Origin: Gammaproteobacteria bacterium
Lineage (GTDB): Bacteria; Pseudomonadota; Gammaproteobacteria; Steroidobacterales; GCA-2729495
Direction: 5' to 3'
NCBI GenBank assembly: GCA_027293165.1
Contig: JAPUGB010000084.1
Span: forward strand, 1-36,970
DNA length: 36,970 nt
Shown here: in pieces, positions 7,873 through 31,012 of the stretch
Numbering within the stretch: position 1 is the stretch's first letter
How the letters are laid out: each line of letters begins with the position of its first letter
Notes under the pieces: generated by a model
Databases searched by the model: none
What the model saw: only the letters and a program-made list of their open reading frames with translations
What the model was told of the DNA's origin: nothing
Position numbers and translations under genes: made by a program

Positions 7873-8127
7873 GCCCGGGAGCGATCAATCCGCGTACGAT
7901 CAACCCGCCGTCGGGCCTGGAAAGTCCAAGGACGGGCGAACAGGCAATGAAGCGTCGATTAAATTTACATAAATTGCGGATGGTGGGCGAGAAACTGCCG
8001 AAAAAGGAGGTTTATCGGCCGATCGAGGGAGCATGGTTTCGATTAGCAATCTTCAATGCAGCCCGGAACGGCCCCGTGTGGGGAGCAAAAACCCTTTAAC
8101 CGCGCGCTCGTTACCGAACTTTGTTGG
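7873..8127. other. Intergenic stretch after pdxH, no confident gene
   Basis: This stretch contains an in-frame ORF of 50 codons starting at ATG 7947 (a basic N-terminus, MKRRLNLHKLRMVGEKLP) and a 41-codon ORF from ATG 8033 that runs into the dyad at 8128-8173. Neither has a well-spaced ribosome site or recognisable family. An AAGGAGG at 8004-8010 is too far from the next ATG. I see no cobalamin riboswitch B12 box here. The 50-codon ORF cannot be excluded as a small basic protein. Confidence 0.3.
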
Positions 8128-8173
8128 CGAAATCGATAAGATCTACCGATGTCGGTAAAACTGACAGATTTCG
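8128..8173. promoter_or_regulatory. Nested dyad, candidate enhancer site for a sigma-54 activator
   Basis: TACCGATGTCGGTA (8144-8157) is a perfect inverted repeat with centre 8150.5. CGAAATC (8128-8134) and GATTTCG (8167-8173) form a second inverted pair with exactly the same centre. A further TTACCGA half-site at 8111-8117 matches the inverse of 8152-8158. The centre is about 117 bp before the predicted sigma-54 start, the usual distance for an activator (bEBP) binding site. The activator is not identifiable; GTTAC and GTAA fragments only loosely recall CbrB sites. Confidence 0.55.
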
Positions 8174-8241: not shown

Positions 8242-8257
8242 TGGCACGGGACTTGCT
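8242..8257 (+). promoter_or_regulatory. Sigma-54 (RpoN) -24/-12 promoter
   Basis: TGGCACG (8242-8248), four bases, then TTGCT (8253-8257) matches the RpoN consensus TGGCACG-N4-TTGCW at every position, with GG at -24 and GC at -12. The predicted start is near 8268. The upstream 8195-8240 is AT-rich, as expected for a bendable or IHF-assisted region, though no full IHF consensus is present. No open reading frame begins downstream before the terminator at 8463, so the promoter appears to serve a non-coding RNA. Confidence 0.85.
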
Positions 8258-8267
8258 TCTAGTTAGC

Positions 8268-8489
8268 TGCGCACAAAAAAGGTTTCTGCGCCAAGCGACG
8301 GCAATTTCGAAATCTGACTACAGACATCGAAGCCAGAAGAACGGATCAGAAGAAGAAGAAAAACGAGTAGAAGAAGAGCATAACCAATAAAAACAATAAA
8401 TCCACCACAGCCTCGCCTCTGATGTAGAAACCGAATTCGCGACAACAACAATAACCCGTACACCCCGCATTTACTGCGGGGTTTTTTTT
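8268..8489 (+). ncRNA. Candidate CrcZ-like A-rich Hfq/Crc decoy small RNA
   Basis: About 222 nt lie between the sigma-54 promoter and an intrinsic terminator and contain no convincing plus-strand ORF. The RNA would begin with a small hairpin (GCGCA 8269-8273 with TGCGC 8287-8291). It carries A-rich runs: AAG AAG AAG AAA AAC at 8350-8364, AGAAGAAGAG at 8369-8378, AAT AAA AAC AAT AAA at 8386-8400 and AAC AAC AAT AAC at 8444-8455. Consecutive AAN triplets are the Hfq distal-face and Crc motif of Pseudomonas catabolite repression, and CrcZ/CrcY/CrcX are sigma-54-dependent RNAs with several such motifs and a GC-rich terminator. In Pseudomonas crcZ follows cbrB; here it lies between pdxH and an ABC ATPase gene. 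The identity is inference from promoter class plus motif content. It may instead be an unrelated Hfq-binding RNA. Confidence 0.65.
8463..8489 (+). terminator. Rho-independent terminator of the small RNA
   Basis: CCCCGCA (8463-8469) and TGCGGGG (8475-8481) form a perfect 7-bp stem around TTTAC, followed at once by eight T (8482-8489). It ends 76 bp before the ATG of the btuD-like gene, so it defines the 3' end of the small RNA and would insulate that gene from read-through. Confidence 0.93.
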
Positions 8490-8565: not shown

Positions 8566-9333
8566 ATGACGAACTCGCTGGAGTGCGGCAATCTGGTGAT
8601 CTCGGTCGAGAGCCGCGTGCTGGTTCAAGACCTCCAACTAAGTATCGAGGCGGGCACTTTCGTTTGCATTCTCGGGCGCAACGGTGTCGGCAAGACACTT
8701 ACGCTGCATACGCTGGCGGGGCTGCGGCCGGTGCTCACAGGCGCCGTCAGCCTCGCAGGCACGGCGATGGTGAATCTATCGAGACGGCAAATCGCGCAAC
8801 GGCTCGGGCTGCTATTGCAAGCGCAGGACGACACTTTCCCGGTCACCGTAATAGAAAGCGCTTTGATGGGGAGGCATTCGCACCTGGGATTCTGGCAATG
8901 GGAATCCCAACAAGACCGTCTGATCGCAATGGATGCATTAAAGGTATTCGGGGTATCAGGACTCGAACAACGAATGATCCTAACGCTGTCTGGCGGCGAA
9001 CGTCGACGAGTCGCGCTAGCAACCCTGCTCGTCCAGAATCCCGGCGTCTGGCTGCTTGATGAACCCACGAATCATCTCGATCCGCACCACCAGCTGGAGG
9101 TATTGAATAAACTGAGTGCCCTGGCTCGAGACGGTAAATGCGTGATCGCCACACTGCATGATCCCATGCTTGCCGCCCGCTTTTCGAACAATGTGCTGCT
9201 TCTGCATGGCGATGGCGATTGGGAATTCGGGCCAACGAACGATTTACTGGTCCCGACAAATCTGGAGCGTTTGTACCGGACTCCCTTTGAAAGTTTTCAC
9301 AACGGTGATCGAACCATCATGGTGCCGGCGTGA
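8566..9333 (+). CDS. btuD: ABC transporter ATP-binding protein, BtuD/FecE type
   Basis: A 255-residue cytosolic ATPase for the FecCD-type permease family. The Walker A motif GRNGVGKT is at residues 37-44, the signature LSGGE at 141-145, Walker B 'VWLLDEP' at 161-167 and the switch histidine in 'ATLHDP'. The Q-loop glutamine is in 'LLLQAQDD'. The short, single-domain form and the neighbours (PduO-type adenosyltransferase, BtuF-like protein) indicate cobalamin import together with the permease at 2185-3162. The matching permease gene is not adjacent, which is unusual. It begins 76 bp after the small-RNA terminator. I see no cobalamin riboswitch in the 76-bp leader. Haem or siderophore transport remains possible. 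Confidence 0.85.
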   Translation: MTNSLECGNLVISVESRVLVQDLQLSIEAGTFVCILGRNGVGKTLTLHTLAGLRPVLTGAVSLAGTAMVNLSRRQIAQRLGLLLQAQDDTFPVTVIESALMGRHSHLGFWQWESQQDRLIAMDALKVFGVSGLEQRMILTLSGGERRRVALATLLVQNPGVWLLDEPTNHLDPHHQLEVLNKLSALARDGKCVIATLHDPMLAARFSNNVLLLHGDGDWEFGPTNDLLVPTNLERLYRTPFESFHNGDRTIMVPA

Positions 9334-12566: not shown

Positions 12567-13040
12567 CTAAGAAACTTCCCCAAGCTGCAGCTGCAGTGTG
12601 GCTTCGAGTTTTTCCAGATCGGGCACCAGGGCGCGTTCATTGATCATTCTGACTTGGCAAAATACCGGGCTATCCTGTTGCACCTCGTAATCCTCGTCCA
12701 GCTTGATAACTTTTCTGTTGATACGAATCATCTGCGGAAAACCTTCGGCAATGATTCCCAGGTATCCGGTCGCAAGCACCTTGGAAAGCGCATGAAACAC
12801 CACGACACGTGTGCGCCCTCCCGGCTCGGTTGGCTTCAGCCCACACAGTTCTTCAAACCAAACGACCGGTATCAACTTGTCGTTCCAGCGAATCAGCCCT
12901 CGAAACCAGGCCGGAGAGTCGGGACTTCGCTCGGGCTCTGAATAACGCACCACTTCGGCCACACAGGCCCTCGGTACGATCAGTCGATTCCCGTTAAGAG
13001 GCACAAGCAGGCTATACAGATCTTCGAATTTGTCCGGCAT
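12567..13040 (-). CDS. chpC: CheW-like protein ChpC
   Basis: A 157-residue single-domain CheW-like adaptor, last gene of the Pil-Chp group. CheW features include 'LYSLLVPLNGNRLIVPRACVAEV', 'WFRGLIRWNDKLIPVVWFEELCG' and 'TGYLGIIAEGFPQMIRI', ending 'ALVPDLEKLE', which is typical of ChpC in Pseudomonas. It would link the chemoreceptor to the ChpA kinase in addition to PilI. It lies 51 bp after chpA. In P. aeruginosa chpB (methylesterase) lies between chpA and chpC; here it does not. Distinguishing ChpC from other CheW homologues depends on position. Confidence 0.87.
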   Translation of the reverse strand: MPDKFEDLYSLLVPLNGNRLIVPRACVAEVVRYSEPERSPDSPAWFRGLIRWNDKLIPVVWFEELCGLKPTEPGGRTRVVVFHALSKVLATGYLGIIAEGFPQMIRINRKVIKLDEDYEVQQDSPVFCQVRMINERALVPDLEKLEATLQLQLGEVS

Positions 13041-13091
13041 CAGAGCGCCCGCGCGGCTGGGACGGTGTGGTGGATGGGCATATCAGATGAT

Positions 13092-16000
13092 TTAACTGCG
13101 TCGGTGCTCGGCCACCGACGGCAGCAGACCGTGAATCGCGCTGAGTAATTCCTGTTCCTGATACGGCTTGCCTACATAGTCATTGACGCCAAGTTCGATC
13201 GCCCTGGCCCGGTGCTTTTCACTGACCCTGGAGGTAACCATGATAATTGGCGTATCGGCGATTTCCGGGGCATTGCGGACGTACTTGGCAAACTCGTATC
13301 CGTCCATACGCGGCATTTCGACATCCAGGAGAATGATATCTGGCACATGGTCTTGCAATACTTTTACCGCTTCGACTCCGTCAATTGCTGTCATTACGCG
13401 CATACCATTACGTTCAAGTAGCCGCTGAGTTATTCGTCGCATCGTAATCGAGTCGTCGACCACTAAAGCCAGCAGTGGTTGATCCTCGGGTTCTTGACTC
13501 GGTAGCGGCTGGGCCAATGGCGCCAACTGGTCCGTGGATCGAACCAGTGCCACCACATCAAGGATGACGGCTATACGGCCATCGCCGAGAATCGTTGCGC
13601 CGGATACGCCTTTTACTGTCGCGAGTTGCGGGCCTATGGGCTTCACCACGATTTCCCGGTTATCGAGCATTTCATCCGCTATCAGTGCGGCGGAATGTTC
13701 GCCAGCGCGCACCAGGATAATCGAAACCTGATCCTCGTCACTGTCAAGCCGCGATGAGCCCAGTCCAAGGTACTGGCCAAGATGTCGGAACCGGAACTTC
13801 TGCGAGCCGTATTCTATGGCGGGGTCGTCACCGGTCATCCGCTCGTCAAATTCCCTTCTTGGAATTCGAATGATTCCCTCTACCGTCGGCAAAGGTAACG
13901 CATATACTTCAGTACCGACGCGCACCACGAAGGCTTGGGTAACTGCCAGCGTATAAGGCAAGCGCACGGTAAACATGGAACCCCGGCCCGGCGTGGATTT
14001 GATACTCAGCGTACCGCCCAGCTTTGCAACCTCACTGGAGACCACATCCATACCGATACCCCTGCCCGCAGTTTGTGTAAGGCGGTCGGCGGTGCTGAAT
14101 CCTGAACGCAAAATGAGCTCCATCGCCTCTTCGTCCGTGACCGCCTGTCCGGGGCGAAGAAAACCAAGCAGTTCCGCTTTCGCCTTTATCGCCGGTATAT
14201 CCAATCCTCTTCCGTCGTCGAAAACATCAATAACAACCTCCGACCCCTCGCGACGAAATACAATTGAAATCCGCCCTGTTGCCGGCTTACTGAGATTCTC
14301 ACGCTCATCTGTACTTTCAATGCCGTGAATCACCGCATTACGCAGCATATGCTCGAATGGCGGGAGCATCTTTTCCATCACCTGGCGATCCAATTCACCA
14401 CTGCTGCCTTCGGCTAGTAGCTCGACTCGCTTACCACTCTCGGTTGCTATCTGACGAACCAGCCGCGATAACCGGGGCACATGCTGATGAAATGGCACCA
14501 TACGCGTGCGCATCAGATTGTCCTGCAGTTCGGCTGTTGTGCGCGCCTGCTGTATCAATAAAGCCTCAGTCTCGCTGGCAATATTCTGAAGCAAATCCTT
14601 CAGGCTGCTTACGTCACTCGCCGTCTCTGCGAGCGCTCTTGACAGTTGTTGAATCGTCGAATAGCGATCCAGCTCCAGCGGATCAAACGCATCATCCTTT
14701 GTCGGCTCACCTTGATGCCGATACAGGATTTGAGCCTCGGTCTCGATTTCCAATTTGCGCAGTTGCTCGCGGAGTCGAACAACGGTCTGATCGAGTTCCT
14801 CAAGGTTGAACTGGATTGAACCGACTTGTTGATTTATTCGCGAGTGATAGATGCTTATTTCGCCGGCGCTGTTGAGAACATCCTCCAACAACTGTGAATC
14901 GACCCGCGCCATCTCCACACGACTGGCGCCTTCGGGCTCGGAAAGCTGCGGCGGAACCTCCGGCCACGGCTTCGCCGCGATCGATTCAGCTTCGTCCGGC
15001 AATTCGTCCCTAGTCAGCTCACGGGCGAGTTCTCCGAGCCGCTCGAGTCCCTGGTAACGCATGGCCGGTTCCGCCATTTCGTCACCGCCAGTCGGCGCAG
15101 GCAAACCTTCCGCCGGTGGCCCGCTCCCCGCTACGATCGTATCGATCTCGGGCTCGGCGCGCTTCGGCTCCATCGGGGGCTTTGCAGAGAGAACCGCCGA
15201 ATCCGATTCAGCCAGATGCGCCGATCTGAGGCGCTGGAGCAAGCCCGGCGGCGGCGGGCCAACGGACCCGGAAAGCACCTGTTCGCACATTCGGTGCAGT
15301 TCGTCGATGCTGGCCTGCAACAGATCCCGGATTCCGGCCTGCAGAGCGACACCCCCGTCGCTCAGTTGATTCAGTAAGGTCTCCAATTCGTGGCTGAAAT
15401 CGCCTATCCGCGAAACGCCAGCCATTCGCGCGCCACCTTTTAGGGTATGTAGATGTCGCTGTAGCTCGGCCATCGCGGCAGCGCCATCGCCACCATCGGC
15501 GAGCCGCAAAAGGGCCGAATCGGCAGCTTCGAGGATTTCCGTTGCCTCATCGGAAAAAATTGCTGCAATTTCCGCGTCAAACTCCTGCACCGGTGACGGG
15601 CTTTTGGCGATTTCTTCTGCAGGCAGGGGCGGACTCACATGCTCGTCGACAACGTCAGTCGCTTCGTGACTTTCTTGCCCCGGCCGCGCATCGCCATCTA
15701 GCTGTTCAAGCAACGGTTGCATTCGCCGAACGAGACCAGCGGTTTCCGGTAGCTCAATGGACTTGTCGCCCAGGTGGTAGAGCACAGCTTCGATGGCAAT
15801 AACCGCCTCAACGCAAATTGCCAACATCTCTTCGGACACCCCGGTACCCTGCTCGTAGGCAACTTCGATCAATTTATTCAATGGCCGAAGCACCACCGCC
15901 GCTTCCCGAGCCTCAGCCATAGTCACGCTGCCGAGAAGCGTATGACACGATCGAAATACCGGCTCAGGAATGGGATAAGGGGCTGCTGAATTTTTGCAGT

Positions 16001-18422
16001 CTTCGATGAAGCTGTTCATGACGCCAATATGAGTAGCAGCTTCTTTGGACAGAATGTCCAGTAAGACTGGATCAATCGAACTCGGCTGATCCGGCTCAGG
16101 TTGCAACTCAATTTTCCGGACGACCTGAGAGTCGTCAATTGCTTCAGCGGGAATCATTTCTTCAATCGAAGACTTTTCAATGCCTTCCTCCACCGGCTCC
16201 TCAGCGATTTCACCGGCTGCATAGGCATTCACTGTCGCTATGATCTGCGTGACGTCGTGGCCCGGCGGCGTCCCTATCTCGAGCTGCTCCAATAAATCTG
16301 GCAGCACCGCCACTGCGTCAGTTAAGGACTGCAGCATCTCGGGTCCTGGGGTAAGAGTTTTGTTGATCAGCCGATTCAACAGGTTTTCAACGCTCCAGCA
16401 AATCTCACCGATCAATTCCGCCCCAACCATCCGACCACTGCCCTTCAACGTGTGGAACGAGCGGCAAACGGTAGTCAGCGCCATGGGGCTCGCGTCGTCC
16501 CTCCAGGCTGGAAAGTTAGCGGCGATAGATGCAATCTCTTCCCGCGCCTCTTCGATAAAAATCTCGAGGAGGGCAGGGTCAAGCTTTTGCTTCTCCGCGC
16601 TGACGACCGGCGGCTCATGCTTCGCAGCCCCTTCAACAGCCGGTGTCGGATTTGCCAACGCGGCAAGAGCCTCCAGGTCCAATTTGGGCATTTTGACAGT
16701 TGCGTCGTAGCCGGCTGCGTCATGCCCGACCAATGCATCTGACGGATCTGCTTCGGTGATCGCGGACAGGCTTCGCTCAGCGTCGTCCAACATGTACGCT
16801 GGTTCCTTTCTTCCTGCTTGTATCGTCTCCATGTAGTATTCGAGACTTACCATCGCGTCCGCAAGGCGGTTCACGTTCTCTGAATGCTGCCAGTGCTCGC
16901 TACTCCGGACGATGCGGGCGATCGCATCACTTATTCCGTTGACAACTTCAACCCCACGCTTTTGTTCCAGCATTGTGAGACCGGCATTGATTCCGAGCAT
17001 CAGAGTCGGCAGATTGTCGAGCTCCAGGCTATCACCGGGTTTCTCATGTAACTGACCAATGGTTTCCTTGATCCGAGCCAAATTAACAATGCATTCACGC
17101 ATGACGGCTTTGGTGACTTGCTGAAACTCAGCGTCGGTATCTGCTTCATTTTCCTGTGGCGCTATCTGGCTGATCAATTCTGCATCGAGGCGATCCTCTA
17201 CGCTTAACAAATCCGCCGCCATCTTTTCCATGGTTCCTTGGTCCGGCGGTTCCTGTTGCTGCACGATTGCCAACAACTCATGGCTTTGATCCTGGACGAT
17301 CTGTCTCAGAGCACCGAGACCCAGCACTCCGAGTGTGTCGCTGATCTTCTTTAGCAGTTCGGCCTGCGGCCCCAGTTTTTCGACGCTGTCCATACCCGTC
17401 CTGACATAGATATCCAGAACATCCTTGACCTTGGCCAGATCCTCACGGATAGCGTCCGCAACCGTCTTCATCAGTTCGGCGCTGGGGCCTGCCAGTGCTT
17501 CCCTGACGATCTCGACCTGCTCGTCGCCGGCCGACATATCGGATAAATTGAAAGCAGCGCGTATTTCCCGAACACGCCCCCCCCCAGCACTCGATCGGGC
17601 AATGTAATAGAGAAGGTTATTGATCAATTCAGTCGGGGGTTGCTGAGCATATTCAGCCTCGCCAGAAGACTGCAGGCGTTTGATTTCGCGATCGGCCTGC
17701 CCCAGCAAGCGCTTGATTGCAACGCTGAGCTCAAGCCCGCCATTTGAAAGGGCCTCGAGGACCCCTCCAACCACCCACCAAAGTTGATGGACCTCGTCCG
17801 ACTTGGCTGCTTGTTCCAGCCGCTGTGCGGCGGCAGACATTTTGCGAACTTCGCGCTTGACGTGCCCGCCTTTAACGAGGCCCAGCAAACCGAGTTGAAA
17901 CTGTGGGCGAAGGCCTTTGCTTAAGGCGGCTATGTCTTCACCGCTCGGCTTCCGGCGTTTAACAGAATCCGCCTCAGTCGGCTTTTTGCCGAGATTCAAG
18001 AGCAGCAGGGTGCCCTCCGACAGCAGGCGCCGCCCCCTTGCAGCACGCAGGTCATTGAGTAGAGGCAGTAGCACCAGTGGGATATCGCGCCCACCGGCGA
18101 GGATTCGGTCCACGTAAATTGGCAGCTGGACCATTGCGCGGCTCAGCGCTTCGATGCCTTCCTCGGACTCACCTTCCTTATGACGATGTTTGGCCATGAA
18201 GCGACAGGTTTCTTCCATCTCTTCCGCGAGCAGACTGGCGCCGTACGTTTCGGTGAGATGCAGCGCTCCCTTCGCCATGTGCAGCAGACTCGCACATCGT
18301 TCTAGAGCTTCTACGCTGCCACTGCCGTCGGCAAAACTTTCGAGAAAGCCGCGAGCATCGTCCAGCGTCAACGAAAGCGCTTCTCCGACTAGATACAGGG
18401 ATTCAGGTTTCGCAACACTCAT
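13092..18422 (-). CDS. chpA: ChpA hybrid chemosensory histidine kinase of the type IV pilus Chp system
   Basis: A 1776-residue CheA-like kinase. Candidate phosphotransfer (Hpt) sites are H48 ('LLHMAKGA'), H657 ('SFHTLKGSGRM'), H827 ('SCHTLLGSVTM', with the conserved lysine replaced by leucine) and H992 ('HLHTLKGGARM'). Residues 190-600 hold further helical, His-less Hpt-like segments. A dimerisation region (about 1180-1310) precedes the ATPase with N-box 'EHMLRNAVIHGIE' (N1362), 'DVFDDGRGLD' near 1400 and 'GRGIGMDVV' near 1453. A CheW domain (about 1490-1630) and a receiver with phospho-acceptor D1700 ('ILLDVEMPRMDGYEF') and K near 1751 finish the protein. It should phosphorylate PilG and PilH to control pilus extension and retraction. 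It is shorter than P. aeruginosa ChpA (about 2470 aa, more Hpt modules). A G9 tract lies in codons 280-282. Confidence 0.95.
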   Translation of the reverse strand: MSVAKPESLYLVGEALSLTLDDARGFLESFADGSGSVEALERCASLLHMAKGALHLTETYGASLLAEEMEETCRFMAKHRHKEGESEEGIEALSRAMVQLPIYVDRILAGGRDIPLVLLPLLNDLRAARGRRLLSEGTLLLLNLGKKPTEADSVKRRKPSGEDIAALSKGLRPQFQLGLLGLVKGGHVKREVRKMSAAAQRLEQAAKSDEVHQLWWVVGGVLEALSNGGLELSVAIKRLLGQADREIKRLQSSGEAEYAQQPPTELINNLLYYIARSSAGGGRVREIRAAFNLSDMSAGDEQVEIVREALAGPSAELMKTVADAIREDLAKVKDVLDIYVRTGMDSVEKLGPQAELLKKISDTLGVLGLGALRQIVQDQSHELLAIVQQQEPPDQGTMEKMAADLLSVEDRLDAELISQIAPQENEADTDAEFQQVTKAVMRECIVNLARIKETIGQLHEKPGDSLELDNLPTLMLGINAGLTMLEQKRGVEVVNGISDAIARIVRSSEHWQHSENVNRLADAMVSLEYYMETIQAGRKEPAYMLDDAERSLSAITEADPSDALVGHDAAGYDATVKMPKLDLEALAALANPTPAVEGAAKHEPPVVSAEKQKLDPALLEIFIEEAREEIASIAANFPAWRDDASPMALTTVCRSFHTLKGSGRMVGAELIGEICWSVENLLNRLINKTLTPGPEMLQSLTDAVAVLPDLLEQLEIGTPPGHDVTQIIATVNAYAAGEIAEEPVEEGIEKSSIEEMIPAEAIDDSQVVRKIELQPEPDQPSSIDPVLLDILSKEAATHIGVMNSFIEDCKNSAAPYPIPEPVFRSCHTLLGSVTMAEAREAAVVLRPLNKLIEVAYEQGTGVSEEMLAICVEAVIAIEAVLYHLGDKSIELPETAGLVRRMQPLLEQLDGDARPGQESHEATDVVDEHVSPPLPAEEIAKSPSPVQEFDAEIAAIFSDEATEILEAADSALLRLADGGDGAAAMAELQRHLHTLKGGARMAGVSRIGDFSHELETLLNQLSDGGVALQAGIRDLLQASIDELHRMCEQVLSGSVGPPPPGLLQRLRSAHLAESDSAVLSAKPPMEPKRAEPEIDTIVAGSGPPAEGLPAPTGGDEMAEPAMRYQGLERLGELARELTRDELPDEAESIAAKPWPEVPPQLSEPEGASRVEMARVDSQLLEDVLNSAGEISIYHSRINQQVGSIQFNLEELDQTVVRLREQLRKLEIETEAQILYRHQGEPTKDDAFDPLELDRYSTIQQLSRALAETASDVSSLKDLLQNIASETEALLIQQARTTAELQDNLMRTRMVPFHQHVPRLSRLVRQIATESGKRVELLAEGSSGELDRQVMEKMLPPFEHMLRNAVIHGIESTDERENLSKPATGRISIVFRREGSEVVIDVFDDGRGLDIPAIKAKAELLGFLRPGQAVTDEEAMELILRSGFSTADRLTQTAGRGIGMDVVSSEVAKLGGTLSIKSTPGRGSMFTVRLPYTLAVTQAFVVRVGTEVYALPLPTVEGIIRIPRREFDERMTGDDPAIEYGSQKFRFRHLGQYLGLGSSRLDSDEDQVSIILVRAGEHSAALIADEMLDNREIVVKPIGPQLATVKGVSGATILGDGRIAVILDVVALVRSTDQLAPLAQPLPSQEPEDQPLLALVVDDSITMRRITQRLLERNGMRVMTAIDGVEAVKVLQDHVPDIILLDVEMPRMDGYEFAKYVRNAPEIADTPIIMVTSRVSEKHRARAIELGVNDYVGKPYQEQELLSAIHGLLPSVAEHRRS
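17577..17585 (-). repeat. Nine-base poly-G tract inside chpA
   Basis: Nine consecutive C on the plus strand, i.e. G9 in the chpA coding strand, encode three glycines at residues 280-282 within 'SSAGGGRVRE'. Homopolymeric G tracts of this length are prone to slipped-strand changes. A one-base change would stop ChpA production well before the kinase domain. It is the longest homopolymer I noticed in the window. Confidence 0.9.
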
Positions 18423-18452
18423 ACGTATAGGACAGGTGACGAGAATCGCCGG

Positions 18453-20543
18453 TCAGGCTGTTTTCTGGGCGGCGAAGTCTTCGCTCTGCTCATCCTCCGC
18501 GTCCACGTCCACCGACAATTTCTCCACTTCAACATTCTCCAGCGCTGTAGAAGCGGCTTTCAAGTCTGGCAGACGGAACCCAGCAATTGATCTTCGAAGT
18601 TCACTGGCCAGTTTCGAAAGTTTGCTTATGGAAGCAGTTGTTGCATTGGTACTCCGATCGGTCTGAGCGCTAATTTCATCGAGCTGGCCCATGTTGCGCA
18701 GAATACCCTGCGCAGCATTGGACTGTTCCCGTGAAGATCCAGAGATATTTTGAACGAGCATCGCAATCTGATTGGATACCTGTTCGATCTCTTCAAGCGC
18801 AGCGCCCGCGTTCTCAGCCAGCAATGCGCCGCCAACTACATCGGTGGTGCTTCGTTCCATGGATACGACGGCTTCGTTGGTATCGGACTGAATTGTCCGT
18901 ACCAGTACTTCGATCTGTTTGGTCGCGTTGGCGGAACGCTCGGCAAGTCGCTGAACTTCGTCTGCTACCACTGCAAATCCACGTCCAGCTTCGCCGGCCA
19001 TCGATGCCTGGATCGACGCATTTAGAGCAAGAATATTCGTTTGCTCGGCAATATCATTAATCAGGTCCACTATGTCGCCAATCTCTTGCGAACTTTCACC
19101 AAGCCGTTTAATACGCTTCGATGTATCTTGGATCGTTTCGCGAATAGTGTTCATACCCTCAATTGTTCTGCGTACAGCGCTTCCGCCCTTGTGCGCCACG
19201 TCCACGGCATGTCGTGCAACATCGGACGATCGTTCCGCGTTGCCAGACACCTCATCGACTGATGCGGCCATTTGGGCAATCGAGTCGGACGCCGCTTTGA
19301 TTTGCCTGCGCTGCCCATCGCTGGCTGCGCCAAGCTGCCGCGCACTGACCTCGGCCTGTTTTGCTTCGCCATCCACAAGGATTGCGCTGTCACTAATCGT
19401 CATTACGAGGTCCCTGAGCGCCTCGACTGCATAATTGACCGAATCGGCTATGGCTCCGGTCACGTCCTCACCGACGGTCACGCGAACCGTCAGATCACCG
19501 TCCGCAAGACTGCCCAATTCATCCAGCAGCCGAAGAATAGCCTCCTGATCCTGCTCGGTTTGTGCAGCAAGCTTGACCGTCGCTTTACGACTACCCGCAG
19601 CGCGCTGATAAACCCAGGCCATGATCAAAAGCACCAGTCCTGCGAGCGACAGCAGTACTACCGGATGAGTCAACTGATCGATACGCGGAGGCATGCTGAA
19701 TGACAGCACTGAACTTTGCTGTCCGGATCCGACCGGCAAGCCAGCAAGCACGGCCACGATTTCGGGTTTAAGTGCCACATCGTCCAGTTGCCGATTTGCC
19801 TGGCGTATCGCTATGACCCGATCAGATATGACGAGCATGTTTTGGACACTGCTTGCCATTTCACTGGACAGGCCGGCAAGGCGCCCCACCATTTGCTCCG
19901 CTGCCTCGCCAGCTACGGGGCTAATCGCCAATTGAGCATCACCGGCCCGTAAGCCTTGCACGATTTGATTCAGCTCCACCTCGCTGTCCAGCATCTTACG
20001 GCTGGATTCCGCAGGCTCGCTGACTCCCCGGGCCAGGGCTTGGGCGTTGCTCAGCTGTCCCTCGGCGAGCAGCCGCAAGCGTCCCAGATGTGCTCCCAAC
20101 GCGGGCTGCGGCGCTAACGAAACCTCTTCTTCCAGCAAGTAAATGGTTTCGGTGAAACGGTCTACGACTTCAGCCAGCGTGTTGGCGGCGGCATGCAGGG
20201 CACGGACATCTTCCTGCCCCTCCAAAAGCTCCTCGACGCTGGAGCGAGTCAGCAGTAGGCGATCCCTTTGTGCTGGTGACAGCTTCGCGGCATCGATCGA
20301 ATCGAGTCCACGACGTGTCTCCGCCAGAGCGACAAAAGCCTCGTCGGCTCCACCCAGAGCAATGCGGGCCTGCAGATTAGCGGCCTGTGCGTAGGCCAGG
20401 CTCGCAATTGCCGTACTCCCCGCCTCAGACCGGGTGCGATCTGCGTCTGCAACATACAGCTTAAAGCCGGCCGACCCGATCAGCGCGAGGAGCAAGAAAG
20501 CGAGAGCCGGCAGGTACCGTGCTCCGTTGGTTTTTTCCGCCAT
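18453..20543 (-). CDS. pilJ: PilJ methyl-accepting chemotaxis receptor
   Basis: A 696-residue inner-membrane chemoreceptor that signals to ChpA through PilI. It has TM1 at about residues 9-30, a long helical periplasmic sensor (about 32-290) with repeated PilJ-type helical modules, TM2 at 293-312, a HAMP region (about 313-375, 'LGSLADGDLTVRVTVGED') and a cytoplasmic coiled-coil signalling domain with hairpin tip 'EQTNILALN' at 500-508 followed by 'GRGFAVVADEVQRLAERS'. The C-terminal acidic tail has no CheR-docking pentapeptide. It lies between pilI (97-bp gap) and chpA (30-bp gap). The methyltransferase gene pilK, usually next, is absent, so adaptation by methylation would need enzymes encoded elsewhere. 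Confidence 0.95.
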   Translation of the reverse strand: MAEKTNGARYLPALAFLLLALIGSAGFKLYVADADRTRSEAGSTAIASLAYAQAANLQARIALGGADEAFVALAETRRGLDSIDAAKLSPAQRDRLLLTRSSVEELLEGQEDVRALHAAANTLAEVVDRFTETIYLLEEEVSLAPQPALGAHLGRLRLLAEGQLSNAQALARGVSEPAESSRKMLDSEVELNQIVQGLRAGDAQLAISPVAGEAAEQMVGRLAGLSSEMASSVQNMLVISDRVIAIRQANRQLDDVALKPEIVAVLAGLPVGSGQQSSVLSFSMPPRIDQLTHPVVLLSLAGLVLLIMAWVYQRAAGSRKATVKLAAQTEQDQEAILRLLDELGSLADGDLTVRVTVGEDVTGAIADSVNYAVEALRDLVMTISDSAILVDGEAKQAEVSARQLGAASDGQRRQIKAASDSIAQMAASVDEVSGNAERSSDVARHAVDVAHKGGSAVRRTIEGMNTIRETIQDTSKRIKRLGESSQEIGDIVDLINDIAEQTNILALNASIQASMAGEAGRGFAVVADEVQRLAERSANATKQIEVLVRTIQSDTNEAVVSMERSTTDVVGGALLAENAGAALEEIEQVSNQIAMLVQNISGSSREQSNAAQGILRNMGQLDEISAQTDRSTNATTASISKLSKLASELRRSIAGFRLPDLKAASTALENVEVEKLSVDVDAEDEQSEDFAAQKTA

Positions 20544-20640
20544 CGTTGCAATTCTCCGCGTTTAATGCCGGGTGACGCCACGCGAGGCTCGTCCCGCGAC
20601 TCGCTGAACGTATGCTGCACCATACATGCGCTAAACCTGC

Positions 20641-21210
20641 TTACTCCGCCGCTACGTGCTGGAACTCTTTGGTCTCCAACAGCTTTGCCATATTGAAAAT
20701 TGGCCAGGTGTCATCGCCGCGGTTATACGAGCCGTCGAGGTAGCGCTCGCACCGAACCACCGTATCCGGACACTCCTGCGCAAATTCCGTTACCAGGAAG
20801 CGCCGAAAGCCGATGACCTCGTCGACAACGATACCCAGCGGAAATTCGCGACTGTTCAGCACCAATACACGAGCGGCATGACCACCACCGGTGCCGGCCC
20901 CCAAAAACTGCTTTAGATCAACCAACGGAAGCAGCTGCCCCCTGACGTTTACCAAGCCGACCACCCAAGGCTTTGCTCCCGGCACCCGCGCGGCTTGGGA
21001 CGGAATTATCATTACCTCGCGCACCTCATGGCGTGCGACCAAAAGCCAGTCAGTACCCAACCGAAACCCAATCCCTACCCATTCCTGCGCGTCACCTTTA
21101 GCGGCAGCGGGACCGGCCAAAGCAAGCTTGCTGCGGCGTTCAAGTTCCTGCAACAACTCAAACGGCGTGTCCCTCAGAGCTGTCAGAGCATTACCCGGCT
21201 CGGTACTCAT
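20641..21210 (-). CDS. pilI: PilI CheW-like adaptor
   Basis: A 189-residue CheW-family coupling protein that connects the PilJ receptor to the ChpA kinase. After an N-terminal helical extension ('LRDTPFELLQELERRSKLAL', typical of PilI) the CheW domain shows 'EWVGIGFRLGTDWLLVARHEV', 'PWVVGLVNVRGQLLPLVDLKQFL' and 'PLGIVVDEVIGFRRF'. Its ATG overlaps the TGA of pilH by 4 bp (ATGA at 21210-21207), indicating translational coupling. The gene order pilG-pilH-pilI-pilJ is the canonical one. Confidence 0.94.
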   Translation of the reverse strand: MSTEPGNALTALRDTPFELLQELERRSKLALAGPAAAKGDAQEWVGIGFRLGTDWLLVARHEVREVMIIPSQAARVPGAKPWVVGLVNVRGQLLPLVDLKQFLGAGTGGGHAARVLVLNSREFPLGIVVDEVIGFRRFLVTEFAQECPDTVVRCERYLDGSYNRGDDTWPIFNMAKLLETKEFQHVAAE

Positions 21211-21572
21211 TGTCCCAGGGCGGCTTCAACCGCCTGCACAATCTGATCCGCATCAACGGGTTTGACCAGATACTCCACCGCGCCCTGGCGCAAACCCCAG
21301 ATGCGGTCCGTTTCGAGCCCTTTGGTACTAATAATAACGATCGGTATCGACGACGTTGTGATATTGCGTTTGAGTTGCCTTGTGGCCTGGAAACCGTTCA
21401 TGCCAGGCATAACAACATCCATGATGATCACCTGCGGCTGGACCTTCTCGGCTTTAGCAATCGCCTCTTCACCATCGCTGGCGACTACCGTATCGAAGCC
21501 GTGTTTTTCAAGCGCGCGCGCGAACAGATGCTGCTCCGTTGGAGAATCGTCAACAATCAACACCAAGGCCAA
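21207..21572 (-). CDS. pilH: PilH CheY-like response regulator
   Basis: A 121-residue single receiver domain, the second response regulator of the Chp system, linked to pilus retraction in P. aeruginosa. Acidic pocket 'IVDDSPTEQ', phospho-acceptor in 'VIIMDVVMPGMNGFQATRQL' and the conserved lysine in 'LVKPVD' are present. The frame is open to 21632, but I start at TTG 21572. This has AGGAG 8 nt upstream (complement of 21581-21585), gives MALVLIVDDSP aligned to the PilH N-terminus, and gives the same length as P. aeruginosa PilH. The ATG at 21632 would overlap pilG and add 20 unlike residues. Translationally coupled to pilI. Confidence 0.93.
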   Translation of the reverse strand: MALVLIVDDSPTEQHLFARALEKHGFDTVVASDGEEAIAKAEKVQPQVIIMDVVMPGMNGFQATRQLKRNITTSSIPIVIISTKGLETDRIWGLRQGAVEYLVKPVDADQIVQAVEAALGQ

Positions 21573-21591
21573 TCTGCGCACTCCTATTGGT

Positions 21592-22029
21592 CTAGCCGGA
21601 AACCTGCCGCGCAATCGCCCCAAGAAGCTCATCTTTGGTAAAGGGCTTCGTCAAATATTGCTCGGAACCAACAATTCGTCCACGCGCCCGATCGAACAAG
21701 CCGTCCCTGCTTGAGAGCATAATGACGGGCGTATCCTTAAAGTTGCTGTTGTGCTTGATTAGCGAACAGGTCTGATAGCCGTCAAGACGTGGCATCATGA
21801 TGTCTACAAAGATAACGTCCGGACGGTGATCAGCGATTTTCGAAAGGGCATCGAATCCGTCCACTGCCGTGAAGACCCTGCATCCCTCCTTGGACAACAG
21901 CGTTTCAGCCGTACGACGTATGGTCTTACTATCATCGATGATCAGGATTTTCAGCCCCTGAAGTTTCGAAGCCGCCTCGTCAACCACCTGCGCCTCCCTG
22001 ACTGGAGCGGGATTTCCCTCTTTTAACAT
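21592..22029 (-). CDS. pilG: PilG CheY-like response regulator
   Basis: A 145-residue receiver protein, first gene of the Chp operon, linked in Pseudomonas to pilus extension and cAMP signalling. It has 'KILIIDDSKTIRRTAETLLSKEG', the phospho-acceptor aspartate in 'VIFVDIMMPRLDGYQTCSLI', threonine-serine switch in 'VIMLSSRDGLFDRARGRIVG' and lysine in 'YLTKPFTKDELLGAI'. The sequence from 'DDSKTIRR' onwards is of unmistakable PilG type. The N-terminus is about 20 residues longer than in P. aeruginosa. It is divergent from gshB with a 278-bp shared upstream region, as in Pseudomonas. Confidence 0.95.
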   Translation of the reverse strand: MLKEGNPAPVREAQVVDEAASKLQGLKILIIDDSKTIRRTAETLLSKEGCRVFTAVDGFDALSKIADHRPDVIFVDIMMPRLDGYQTCSLIKHNSNFKDTPVIMLSSRDGLFDRARGRIVGSEQYLTKPFTKDELLGAIARQVSG

Positions 22030-27561: not shown

Positions 27562-28617
27562 CTATGCGAAGTGAATCTTGGCCTCGAGATCGGTGCGTGA
27601 GTCTGCGTTCGCCAGTGCCTCTTCCATCGAAATCCGACCTTCTTTATACAGCGACAGCAGCGCCTGATCGAAAGTTTGCATTCCCGCCTCGCTACTCGAC
27701 CGGAACGATTCCTTGACCCGGCCGAGGTCCGCCCGATTTATCAGCTCGGCAATATGCGCGGTGTTCAACATGACTTCTACGGCGGCGACGCGCTTGCCGT
27801 CGGTGCTGCGAACCAAGCGCTGCGAGATGATCGCGCGCAGGTAGTGTGACAGGTCCATGTAAACCTGACGATGTTGCTCCTGCGGAAACAGATTGATCAT
27901 ACGGTCCAGGGTTTCCGGAGCATTATTTGCGTGCAGGGTCGCAACCACGAGGTGGCCGGTTCCGGCCAGGTGGATCACGGCCTCCATCGACTCCCGGTCG
28001 CGAATTTCACCAACCAGGATGACGTCCGGCGCCTCCCGCATTGCACTCTTTAGCGCTCGGGAGTAAGACAGGGTGTCTATACCGACCTCGCGCTGATTCA
28101 CGATGGACTTTTTGTTCGGGTGCAGATACTCGATCGGATCTTCGATCGTAACTATGTGCGACGAAGATTTCTCATTGCGATAATTGATCATTCCGGCAAT
28201 CGTCGTCGTCTTGCCGGATCCAGTCGCTCCGACCATCAAAACCAATCCGCGGCGGAACATTATCAGATCGTTGAGAATTGGAGGCATACCCAGTTCGCTC
28301 AGGGTCGGCACCTCCGCGGTCAAATGGCGCATAACCATGCCAACATTCCCACGCTGATGAAATACGTTGACCCGGAATCGCCCCAGGCCCGACTTGGAGA
28401 TGGCGAAATCGAGCTCGAGTTCTCGATTGAAATAGTCCATCTGCTCTTCGTTCATCAGCTCCATGGCCGCTTGCCGCACCATTTTTGGAGTCAGTTCCAG
28501 TTTATTGACCGGCATGATTTTGCCCTCGATCTTGATCTTGACCGGCGCATGACTGGTGAAAAACATATCCGAGGCTTTCTTCTCGACCATGAGTTTGAAT
28601 AAAGGTTGAACGTTCAT
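27562..28617 (-). CDS. PilT/PilU family ATPase, third paralogue
   Basis: A 351-residue hexameric secretion/retraction ATPase of the PilT family. Walker A GATGSGKT is at residues 130-137, an Asp box in 'VTIEDPIEYLHP', Walker B 'VILVGEIRDRESM', and the His box 'ATLHANNAPETLDR'. It is closer to PilU than to PilT in its N-terminus ('PLFKLMVEKKASDMFFTSHA') and in 'LHANNA'. The AIRNLIRE motif of PilT is replaced by 'HIAELINR'. The PilU-type long C-terminal tail is missing. It is the third of three tandem paralogues, after pilT and pilU with a 41-bp gap, probably one operon. It likely assists pilus retraction as an accessory motor. P. aeruginosa has only pilT and pilU at this locus. Confidence 0.9.
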   Translation of the reverse strand: MNVQPLFKLMVEKKASDMFFTSHAPVKIKIEGKIMPVNKLELTPKMVRQAAMELMNEEQMDYFNRELELDFAISKSGLGRFRVNVFHQRGNVGMVMRHLTAEVPTLSELGMPPILNDLIMFRRGLVLMVGATGSGKTTTIAGMINYRNEKSSSHIVTIEDPIEYLHPNKKSIVNQREVGIDTLSYSRALKSAMREAPDVILVGEIRDRESMEAVIHLAGTGHLVVATLHANNAPETLDRMINLFPQEQHRQVYMDLSHYLRAIISQRLVRSTDGKRVAAVEVMLNTAHIAELINRADLGRVKESFRSSSEAGMQTFDQALLSLYKEGRISMEEALANADSRTDLEAKIHFA

Positions 28618-28658
28618 AGATTGTTAATTAGTTAAGTAAACCGCACGTCGACTGACGA

Positions 28659-29819
28659 TCACGCAAGGGCCTTCCCGCCACCTTCATCATGTAATTGCAG
28701 GGTGTCAGACTGACCTTTCTCGAGAATTTGTTCTCGGTTGCTTTCCAGTTTGATTTTTAATCGCAACTCGTTCTTGGAATCGGCGTTTCTCATTACCTCC
28801 TCGTAAGCGATGGTTCCTTTTTCATACAAAGTGAAAAGCGCCTGATCGAACGTCTGCATTCCAAGACGCGTCGACTTCGCCATGATCTCCTTAATCCGCG
28901 CCACCTCACCTTTGAATATGAGGTCGGATATAAGCGGCGAAGCCAGCATGATCTCCATTGCCGCCACGCGTCCCTCTCCATTTTGTCGGGGTATGAGTCT
29001 CTGGGAAATCAGGGCTTGAACATTCAGTGACAGGTCCATCAACAGCTGCGAGCGTTTTTCTTCGGGGAAAAAGTTGATGATCCGGTCGAGAGCCTGATTG
29101 GCGTTATTGGCATGCATGGTTGCCAGGCAAAGATGCCCGGTTTCGGCGAATTGGATCCCATATTCCATGGTTTCCCGCTCGCGAATTTCGCCGATCAGGA
29201 TCACGTCGGGCGCCTGTCGGAGAGTATTCTTCAATGCCGCATGCCAAGACTCGGTATCAACACCGACCTCGCGCTGGGTAATGACGCAGTTTCCGTGAGG
29301 ATGTACGTATTCGACCGGATCCTCAATCGTAACGATATGTCCACGCGAGGCGTTATTGCGATGGCCCACCATGGCCGCAAGCGTCGTTGACTTACCGGAA
29401 CCGGTCGCACCAACGATGATAACGAGCCCACGGGTCGTCATCGCGATGTCCTTCAGGTTCCCCGGAAGCTCGAGTTCCTCGACCGTCGGAATCTTCGTAA
29501 TGATCGTACGCAGAACAGCGCCAACCTGTCCCTGCTGAATGAACGCGCTTACCCGAAATCGGCCGATTCCCTGCGGGTTAATCGCAAAGTTACATTCTTT
29601 CGTTGCATCAAAATCTCTCGCCTGCCGGTCGTTCATGATCGAACGGACCATCACCGCGGATTGGTCGGGAGCCAGCTCTTGTTGCGCAGCCCGGTGGACT
29701 TCTCCGTCAATCTTGATCGCCGGAGGAAACCCGGCAGTTATGAACAAATCGGAACCGCCTTTGGCGACCAGCTTTTTCAGCAGGGTCTGCATCATTCGGG
29801 TTGCTTGGTCGCGTTCCAT
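28659..29819 (-). CDS. pilU: PilU, accessory type IV pilus retraction ATPase
   Basis: A 386-residue PilT-family ATPase with Walker A GATGSGKS at residues 137-144, 'VTIEDPVEYVHPHGNCVITQREVG', Walker B 'VILIGEIRERETM' and 'ATMHANNANQALDRIINFFP'. The N-terminal 'GGSDLFITAGFPPAIKIDGEV' and 'TKECNFAINPQGIGRFRVSAF', plus a C-terminal tail beyond 'LRLKIKLES', match P. aeruginosa PilU (382 aa). The PilT AIRNLIRE motif is replaced by 'LISDLIFK'. PilU works together with PilT in depolymerising the pilus. It lies 48 bp downstream of pilT. Confidence 0.94.
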   Translation of the reverse strand: MERDQATRMMQTLLKKLVAKGGSDLFITAGFPPAIKIDGEVHRAAQQELAPDQSAVMVRSIMNDRQARDFDATKECNFAINPQGIGRFRVSAFIQQGQVGAVLRTIITKIPTVEELELPGNLKDIAMTTRGLVIIVGATGSGKSTTLAAMVGHRNNASRGHIVTIEDPVEYVHPHGNCVITQREVGVDTESWHAALKNTLRQAPDVILIGEIRERETMEYGIQFAETGHLCLATMHANNANQALDRIINFFPEEKRSQLLMDLSLNVQALISQRLIPRQNGEGRVAAMEIMLASPLISDLIFKGEVARIKEIMAKSTRLGMQTFDQALFTLYEKGTIAYEEVMRNADSKNELRLKIKLESNREQILEKGQSDTLQLHDEGGGKALA

Positions 29820-29867
29820 TACCTTAATTCCGTCTGAAGATTAGTCCTCCGCATTGCGGACCTGACT

Positions 29868-30908
29868 TCAGAAATTCTCCTTGTTGACGGCCTTGAAGCG
29901 CGCCTCTTCCTTACTGATCTGGCCCTTGACCATCAGGTCCTGGAGATCCTGATCCAATGTCTGCATGCCCTGGCCCTGGCCGGTTTGAATCGCCGAATAC
30001 ATTTGGGCGATTTTTCCTTCTCTGATCAGGTTACGAATTGCCGGAGTCCCGATCATGATTTCGTGGGCGGCCACACGGCCGCCTCCGACTCGCTTAAGCA
30101 GGGTCTGGGAGATTACGGCACGTAGTGACTCGGAGAGCATCGACCGAACCATCTCCTTCTCCTGTGCCGGAAATACATCGACAACACGGTCAATGGTCTT
30201 GGCGGCAGAACTCGTATGAAGCGTCCCGAACACCAGATGTCCAGTCTCAGCTGCCGTTAATGCCAGGCGAATGGTTTCCAGATCCCGCATCTCGCCAACC
30301 AGAATCACATCGGGATCTTCGCGCAACGCCGACCTTAGCGCCTCACTGAAACCCAGAGTGTCACGATTCACTTCGCGTTGATTGATCAGCGACCGTTTGC
30401 ACTCGTGAACGAATTCAATTGGATCCTCGATCGTCAAAATATGGTCTGGTTTGTTCTCATTCACGTAATGAACCATCGCCGCCAGCGTAGTTGACTTGCC
30501 CGAACCGGTCGGACCCGTAACCAGGACGATGCCGCGCGGGTACATGGCTATATCTTTAAAGATATTTGGAGCTTTTAAGTCCTCAAGGCTAAGAATTTCG
30601 GATGGAATCGTTCGGAAAACCGCCCCTGCACCTCGCGCTTGATTAAAAGCATTCACGCGAAACCGTGCCAGTTTAGGAATTTCAAACGAAAAGTCTGTTT
30701 CAAGAAATTCCTCAAAATCCTTCCGCTGTTTGTCGTTCATGATGTCGTATATCATGCTGTGCACATCTTTATGGGTAAGCGCAGGCATGTTGACTCTTTT
30801 CACATCGCCGTCCACACGAATCATCGGAGGAACACCAGCCGAAAGATGAAGGTCGGACGCGTTGTTCTTAACTGAAAAGGCCAGCAACTGAGCAATATCT
30901 ACTGCCAT
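29868..30908 (-). CDS. pilT: PilT, type IV pilus retraction ATPase
   Basis: A 346-residue hexameric ATPase at the base of the pilus, powering retraction and twitching. Walker A GPTGSGKS is at residues 132-139, Asp box 'LTIEDPIEFVHE', Walker B 'VILVGEMRD' at 201-209 with E206, His box H231 ('GTLHTSSAAKTIDR'), and the retraction-specific motif AIRNLIRE at 290-297, which identifies true PilT. ATG 30908 is chosen (GGGG 7 nt upstream, family N-terminus 'DIAQLLAFSVKNNASDLHLSAG'); an in-frame TTG two codons earlier opens the frame. It is divergent from yggS (about 100 bp), as in Pseudomonas, and leads the three-ATPase group. Confidence 0.96.
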   Translation of the reverse strand: MAVDIAQLLAFSVKNNASDLHLSAGVPPMIRVDGDVKRVNMPALTHKDVHSMIYDIMNDKQRKDFEEFLETDFSFEIPKLARFRVNAFNQARGAGAVFRTIPSEILSLEDLKAPNIFKDIAMYPRGIVLVTGPTGSGKSTTLAAMVHYVNENKPDHILTIEDPIEFVHECKRSLINQREVNRDTLGFSEALRSALREDPDVILVGEMRDLETIRLALTAAETGHLVFGTLHTSSAAKTIDRVVDVFPAQEKEMVRSMLSESLRAVISQTLLKRVGGGRVAAHEIMIGTPAIRNLIREGKIAQMYSAIQTGQGQGMQTLDQDLQDLMVKGQISKEEARFKAVNKENF

Positions 30909-31012
30909 AACCAATCCCCACGAAGGAGCCGTGCAACCAATATGTGTGTGACGGATTTACCATAACCGGTCACTACTGATTGGCTAGTATAGACATCCAA
31001 CACGGACGGATC

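Follow-up and report, generated by a model that had tools for sequence, protein, structure and literature searches.

A predicted sigma-54-dependent, ARN-rich small RNA with a PrsR-type activator site beside B12 genes, and its possible capture of Hfq

What is the product of a sigma-54 promoter that is followed by an A-rich stretch, no open reading frame and an intrinsic terminator? The question is raised by positions 8242-8489 of the window, the whole stretch of 36,970 nt analysed here, which is contig C236 of a draft genome (G000; 2.36 Mb, 92.7% complete) from an uncultured gammaproteobacterial lineage. The initial annotation had proposed a CrcZ-like RNA at this place, and the elements it named were all found: an exact TGGCAC-N5-TTGC promoter at 8242-8256, AAN runs of five (AAG AAG AAG AAA AAC), five (AAT AAA AAC AAT AAA) and four triplets (AAC AAC AAT AAC) together with two AGAAGAA runs, a terminator stem with T8, and within the predicted transcript no ORF longer than a single Met codon. 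The promoter is the sole exact TGGCAC-N5-TTGC in the 37-kb window, for which shuffles expect 0.08, and the 8242-8489 segment folds 2.8 standard deviations better than shuffles. Two activator sites fall outside the coordinates given by that annotation. The features are as follows.

7953-7969, plus strand: distal copy of the activator site, CGTCGATTAAATTTACA, recurring in several f1 and most f7 loci
8150-8166, plus strand: proximal activator site TGTCGGTAAAACTGACA, 17 nt, PrsR-type, ending 74-75 nt before TGGCA in 30/30 f1 loci
8242-8256, plus strand: sigma-54 -24/-12 promoter TGGCACGGGACTTGC
8268-8489, plus strand: predicted small RNA of about 222 nt, its start inferred from the -12 element
8281-8286, plus strand: 5′ arm (GGTTTC) of the long-range stem P1; 3 of 6 pairs changed on both sides, 97.7% of cells paired
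8306-8331, plus strand: conserved hairpin TTCGAAATCTG..CAGACATCGAA, from the alignment and the stem test
8335-8402, plus strand: repeat block of ARN/AAN triplets, enclosed by P1 as part of its loop; putative site for the distal face of Hfq
8427-8432, plus strand: 3′ arm of P1 (GAAACC), from the covariation of P1
8433-8459, plus strand: GAATTCGCGACAACAACAATAACCCGT, the segment conserved best, including four AAN triplets; putative Hfq site and/or pairing seed
8462-8489, plus strand: intrinsic terminator, stem 8462-8482 and T8 to 8489
8566-9333, plus strand: btuD-like ABC ATPase, a separate unit downstream

A BLAST search of 60 related genomes aligned the unit in about 30 of the 37 genomes of family f1 and in none of the 23 genomes outside it. 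In many loci the similarity started at the promoter (query position 62-63, approximately position 8242) and stopped at the terminator. As the initial annotation had anticipated, the promoter was conserved in relatives, GGCA and TTGC being retained in all 30 f1 loci, and no ORF was common to the aligned loci. A covariance model gave f1 hits of 91-226 bits, apart from one at 24.7 bits, and hits of 24-54 bits in families f6 and f7. Twenty of the weaker hits were inspected individually. All 11 f7 loci and four f6 loci displayed an activator site 74-76 nt off, a sigma-54 site, ARN runs and a terminator; in L223 no close activator site was found by the pattern used. L221 and L224, which had no recognisable sigma-54 site, were rejected, as was L227, where the match was the end of a PEP-CTERM-like gene. 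The unit is not confined to the window, and diverged versions are present in two more families of the order. A class-wide covariance search revealed nothing convincing outside f1 in the genomes drawn; the matches (24.9-32.2 bits) were far shorter than the RNA and were discarded, the one sigma-54-like site near them showing no resemblance. The public records containing ATTCGCGACAACAACAATAACCCGT were metagenome bins without exception; their labels read Gammaproteobacteria, Chromatiales, Nevskiales, Pseudomonadota and, in one case, Rheinheimera.

The A-rich character of the RNA is organised in triplets. ARN runs of at least three triplets covered 58 of 224 nt in the window sequence as against 20.7 in dinucleotide shuffles, and none of 200 shuffles reached 58. 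In 30/30 f1 loci the coverage exceeded the shuffle mean, and no more than 1.5% of shuffles attained the observed value; in the f6 and f7 loci it was about 2-5 fold over the mean. The AAN triplets had been expected to be conserved in relatives, and across f1 their positions 1 and 2 hold while position 3 drifts. In 11 disjoint pairs, changes were seen in 24 of 442 cells (5%) at positions 1 and 2 and in 38 of 220 (17%) at position 3 (Fisher P = 3e-6); across the triplet analyses the ranges were 5-7% and 17-21%, the size of the effect being only approximate since the runs were taken from a single member of each pair and the alignment may be biased towards A-to-A matching. For A residues alone, 6.9%, 3.5% and 20.1% changed at triplet positions 1, 2 and 3, and 12.8% outside the runs. 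Judged from these alignments, the drift has the form that the Hfq distal face (A-R-N) would be expected to impose, and not that of a coding sequence. Several ARN/AAN runs are under selection, as in a decoy of the CrcZ type. A coding reading was rejected: L001 holds no ORF of more than one codon, none is common to the loci, and third-position changes such as AAG to AAC would be non-synonymous. A CsrA sponge was likewise rejected on finding that GGA motifs are not conserved in the alignment. The comparisons support an RpoN-dependent, ARN-rich, untranslated RNA with conserved promoter, triplets and terminator.

The f1 alignment retains GGCA..TTGC, the hairpin TTCGACATCTG..CAGACATCGAA, the A-rich block and the segment ATTCGCGACAACAACAATAACCCGT. 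Pairs of P1 switched from U-A to C-G and from U-A to A-U. In the named stems 93.1% of cells were paired, compared with 20-48% in slid versions, and 5 pairs had changed on both sides compared with 1.3 in shuffles. A separate alignment of the f7 loci gave a comparable long-range stem around ARN loops, with 7 pairs changed on both sides. The f7 loci, L212 included, also contain an extra hairpin CTCTTTT..AAAAGAG just 5′ of the terminator, and in L212 and other f7 loci a GGATTTAGACGCCAGAAGAA core is nearly invariant.

The activator site has the form GTCG(A/G/C)-N6-T(T/G)AC(A/G) in all f1 loci, the proximal copy of the window ending in TGACA. Without exception in f1, and in nearly all f6 and f7 loci, the site stops 74-76 nt short of the -24 element. 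A second copy is found further upstream, at a distance from -24 of approximately 271-283 nt in several f1 loci (among them that of the window), of 208-209 nt in L027 and L030, and of 252-267 nt in most f7 loci (L210, L212, L214-L219, L225, L229). The second copy in f7 has its own conserved sequence of the CGTCGAATAATTTGACA type. Many loci also have an IHF-like site (YAANNNNTTGAT type) some 33 nt before the -24 box; in the window this site is weak. Another PrsR-type site with a sigma-54 promoter was noticed in the genome of the window (L118; G000:C248:865-960, minus strand), behind a glycosyltransferase-like gene and before a short terminator-ended region that could be a small gene or another RNA.

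Upstream of PEP-CTERM genes, Haft et al. 2006 (PMC1569441) described a 17-nt motif ending in TTTACA and followed after 32-92 nt by a sigma-54 site, and assigned this pair of motifs, motif 1 and motif 2, to PrsR. Compared by that published description, the layout at the RNA fits motif 1 followed by motif 2, its 74-76 nt falling within the 32-92 nt range. The pattern GTCG-N7-TTACA-N40-70-TGGCAC-N5-TTGC was found 18 times in 30 genomes, and not once with the reversed-pattern control. Of the 18 sites, ten are followed by ORFs whose PEP-CTERM tails are clear and one more by an ORF with a diverged tail; one of the ten, L163, heads a tandem pair, and the tail of this first copy looks disrupted. A search of G000 for rpoN and hfq, as proposed in the initial annotation, recovered both: one RpoN, and one Hfq with a YLVNGIKLQG segment. 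The PrsR of G000 scored 700 bits (cut-off 502.6) and has a histidine kinase adjacent, the putative PrsK. PrsR was present in most other f1 genomes as well, and fell below the family cut-off in G007, G014, G018 and G027, all of which carry the RNA. Two of these four are bins 94-98% complete, and G007 and G014 do have exosortases. Gaps in the bins or another activator may account for the four. No exosortase was detected by TIGR02602 in G000, the 92.7% complete genome of the window itself; this and the four genomes weigh against the explanation favoured below. The RNA is apparently, on the evidence of its promoter region, switched on by the same regulator as the PEP-CTERM proteins, which are secreted and associated with exopolysaccharide, and not by carbon catabolite control. 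In the open-access literature searched, no paper was found that describes an RNA belonging to the PEP-CTERM/exosortase regulon.

A kinship with CrcZ could not be upheld. The Rfam CrcZ model (RF01675) gave no match in the window region even at E ≤ 10, and in the 60 genomes none above the gathering score of 95, with one weak match at 22.9 bits. No sRNA family reached threshold in the window, in the region at E ≤ 10 or in ten related loci, where the same search returned cobalamin riboswitches only, in three loci. The CbrB subsites TGTTAC/GTAACA (PMC6296734) are not at the RNA promoter, where the conserved site is the PrsR-type GTCGR-N6-TKACA. The search for crc suggested earlier likewise found no Crc-type protein in G000 among the three fuller of four exonuclease-family hits, the fourth being partial, in a bin 92.7% complete. 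The closest PDB match of the ExoIII-type protein of G000 was an exodeoxyribonuclease at 311.6 bits, ahead of Crc at 256.8. Across nine genomes the ExoIII relatives retain those catalytic motifs that were checked, with the exception of a final SDHAP motif, which four hits did not show. Of the earlier proposal, the sigma-54 control, ARN runs, terminator and lack of translation stood, whereas the relationship to CrcZ and CbrB did not. The RNA may be said to resemble CrcZ in logic, at most by analogy, and is not a CrcZ homologue.

The best explanation, and in our view a moderately probable one, is a stand-alone RNA, induced through PrsR and sigma-54, that would capture Hfq. The mechanism may be depicted as follows: The kinase PrsK would phosphorylate PrsR, or a closely related NtrC-type activator, which would bind upstream of the promoter, to the 17-nt site at 75 nt and, in some genomes, also to a more distant copy at about 270 nt. 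Starting near 8268 and stopping at the T8 terminator (8489), sigma-54 transcription would yield a single-copy regulatory RNA, in which the long-range stem would expose a loop of ARN triplets. AAC-AAC-AAT-AAC and the ARN loop would provide the distal-face site for Hfq, and the U8 tail the proximal-face site. With the exopolysaccharide/PEP-CTERM programme active, Hfq would be loaded with the RNA, and Hfq-bound mRNAs would be released or re-routed. Here sequence comparison demonstrates the promoter, the activator site, a conserved structure, selection on the ARN triplets and the non-coding nature; we infer that PrsR is the activator, that Hfq is bound and that the main output is titration.

Each part of this explanation has a competitor. 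The activator might be another sigma-54 partner (PilR-, NtrC- or NorR-like) reading a similar TGTCG..TTACA site, a view favoured by the persistence of the RNA in the four genomes with PrsR below cut-off and by the further activators of the genome; it is unlikely, however, as PEP-CTERM genes of the same order share the site, its orientation and the sigma-54 layout. As for the output, the RNA might belong to the same regulon but act by base pairing, as an Hfq-dependent sRNA of class II type; it would then use its ARN runs and U-tail only for loading onto Hfq, with the unstructured segments AAGCCAGAAGA and CGCGACAACAACAANAACCCGT pairing with target mRNAs. The combination of ARN motif and terminator is the class II layout, a GCCAGAAGA core is common to f1 and f7, and the near-invariant CGCGACAACAACAANAACCCGT segment of 22-25 nt, in the 3′ part, is under tighter constraint than a sponge alone would require, a hint of base pairing. 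Beyond the ARN runs and the short core, however, the f1, f6 and f7 sequences differ while the ARN content stays, and base pairing as the main function is possible but somewhat doubtful.

The gene neighbourhood suggests a further reading, in which the segment would act in cis, as leader or attenuator of the B12 uptake genes that follow it. The initial annotation had called the neighbourhood unrelated, yet it is not arbitrary: btuD or a cobalamin adenosyltransferase lies downstream in nearly all f1 loci with a contig reaching that far, and several f6 and f7 loci also carry the RNA beside B12 genes. This conserved position speaks for a leader, but one gene intervenes in some genomes. A minus-strand gene separates the RNA from btuD in L006, and the B12 gene has a plus-strand gene ahead of it in L219 and L211, which makes the RNA a unit of its own. 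The downstream gene varies between loci, the terminator is strong with no competing antiterminator seen, and sigma-54/PrsR-type control has no known link to B12. A leader of btuD was rejected on gene order, and we regard the cis-acting reading in general as highly improbable. Cobalamin riboswitches were observed downstream of the RNA in three loci of one genus (L018, 2622-2867; L026, 2526-2771; L226, 2645-2860); Rfam gave no match near the B12 genes in the window.

Elsewhere in the window, three consecutive PilT/PilU-like ATPase genes, recognised from their translations, are located at 27562-30914 on the minus strand, and a chemotaxis-type cluster at 12567-22029.

For the putative Hfq-capturing RNA, the larger proposal is that the PEP-CTERM/exosortase regulon holds it, that a PrsK/PrsR matrix signal resets global post-transcriptional control through it, and that the CrcZ strategy had a second origin, without Crc and outside the Pseudomonadaceae; we consider the case for this whole to be evenly balanced. 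A conserved RNA in the PEP-CTERM/exosortase system would add a post-transcriptional arm to it, and may link matrix production to global RNA control. If true, a CrcZ-like, sigma-54-driven ARN-repeat RNA arose outside the Pseudomonadaceae where no Crc was found, which bears on how general a device of regulation Hfq titration by RNA may be. Both claims can be tested directly, through the fixed 75-nt spacing of the activator site and through the phase signature of the triplets.

Among known systems, the PEP-CTERM regulon promoters, as far as the motif description in Haft et al. 2006 (PMC1569441) goes, have in common with this locus the 17-nt motif followed by a sigma-54 site within the published spacer range. 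They precede PEP-CTERM genes and a few others, whereas the product here is a predicted non-coding RNA and the spacer is fixed and longer. CrcZ, CrcY and CrcX of the Pseudomonadaceae share the sigma-54 promoter with an upstream activator site, the ARN/AAN runs, the intrinsic terminator and the absence of translation. CrcZ, however, has a 398-position model and lies beside cbrB, while the present RNA is about 222 nt long, lies beside B12 genes and has another activator site and apparently another regulon, with no Crc-type protein found. Class II sRNAs such as ChiX and CyaR combine an ARN motif with a U-rich terminator, as does this RNA, which differs in its sigma-54/PrsR-type control and in far more ARN triplets. 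The Qrr sRNAs of Vibrio are likewise sigma-54-dependent and under an NtrC-type activator; compared with these, the RNA described here is single copy and ARN-rich, with another activator and another sequence.
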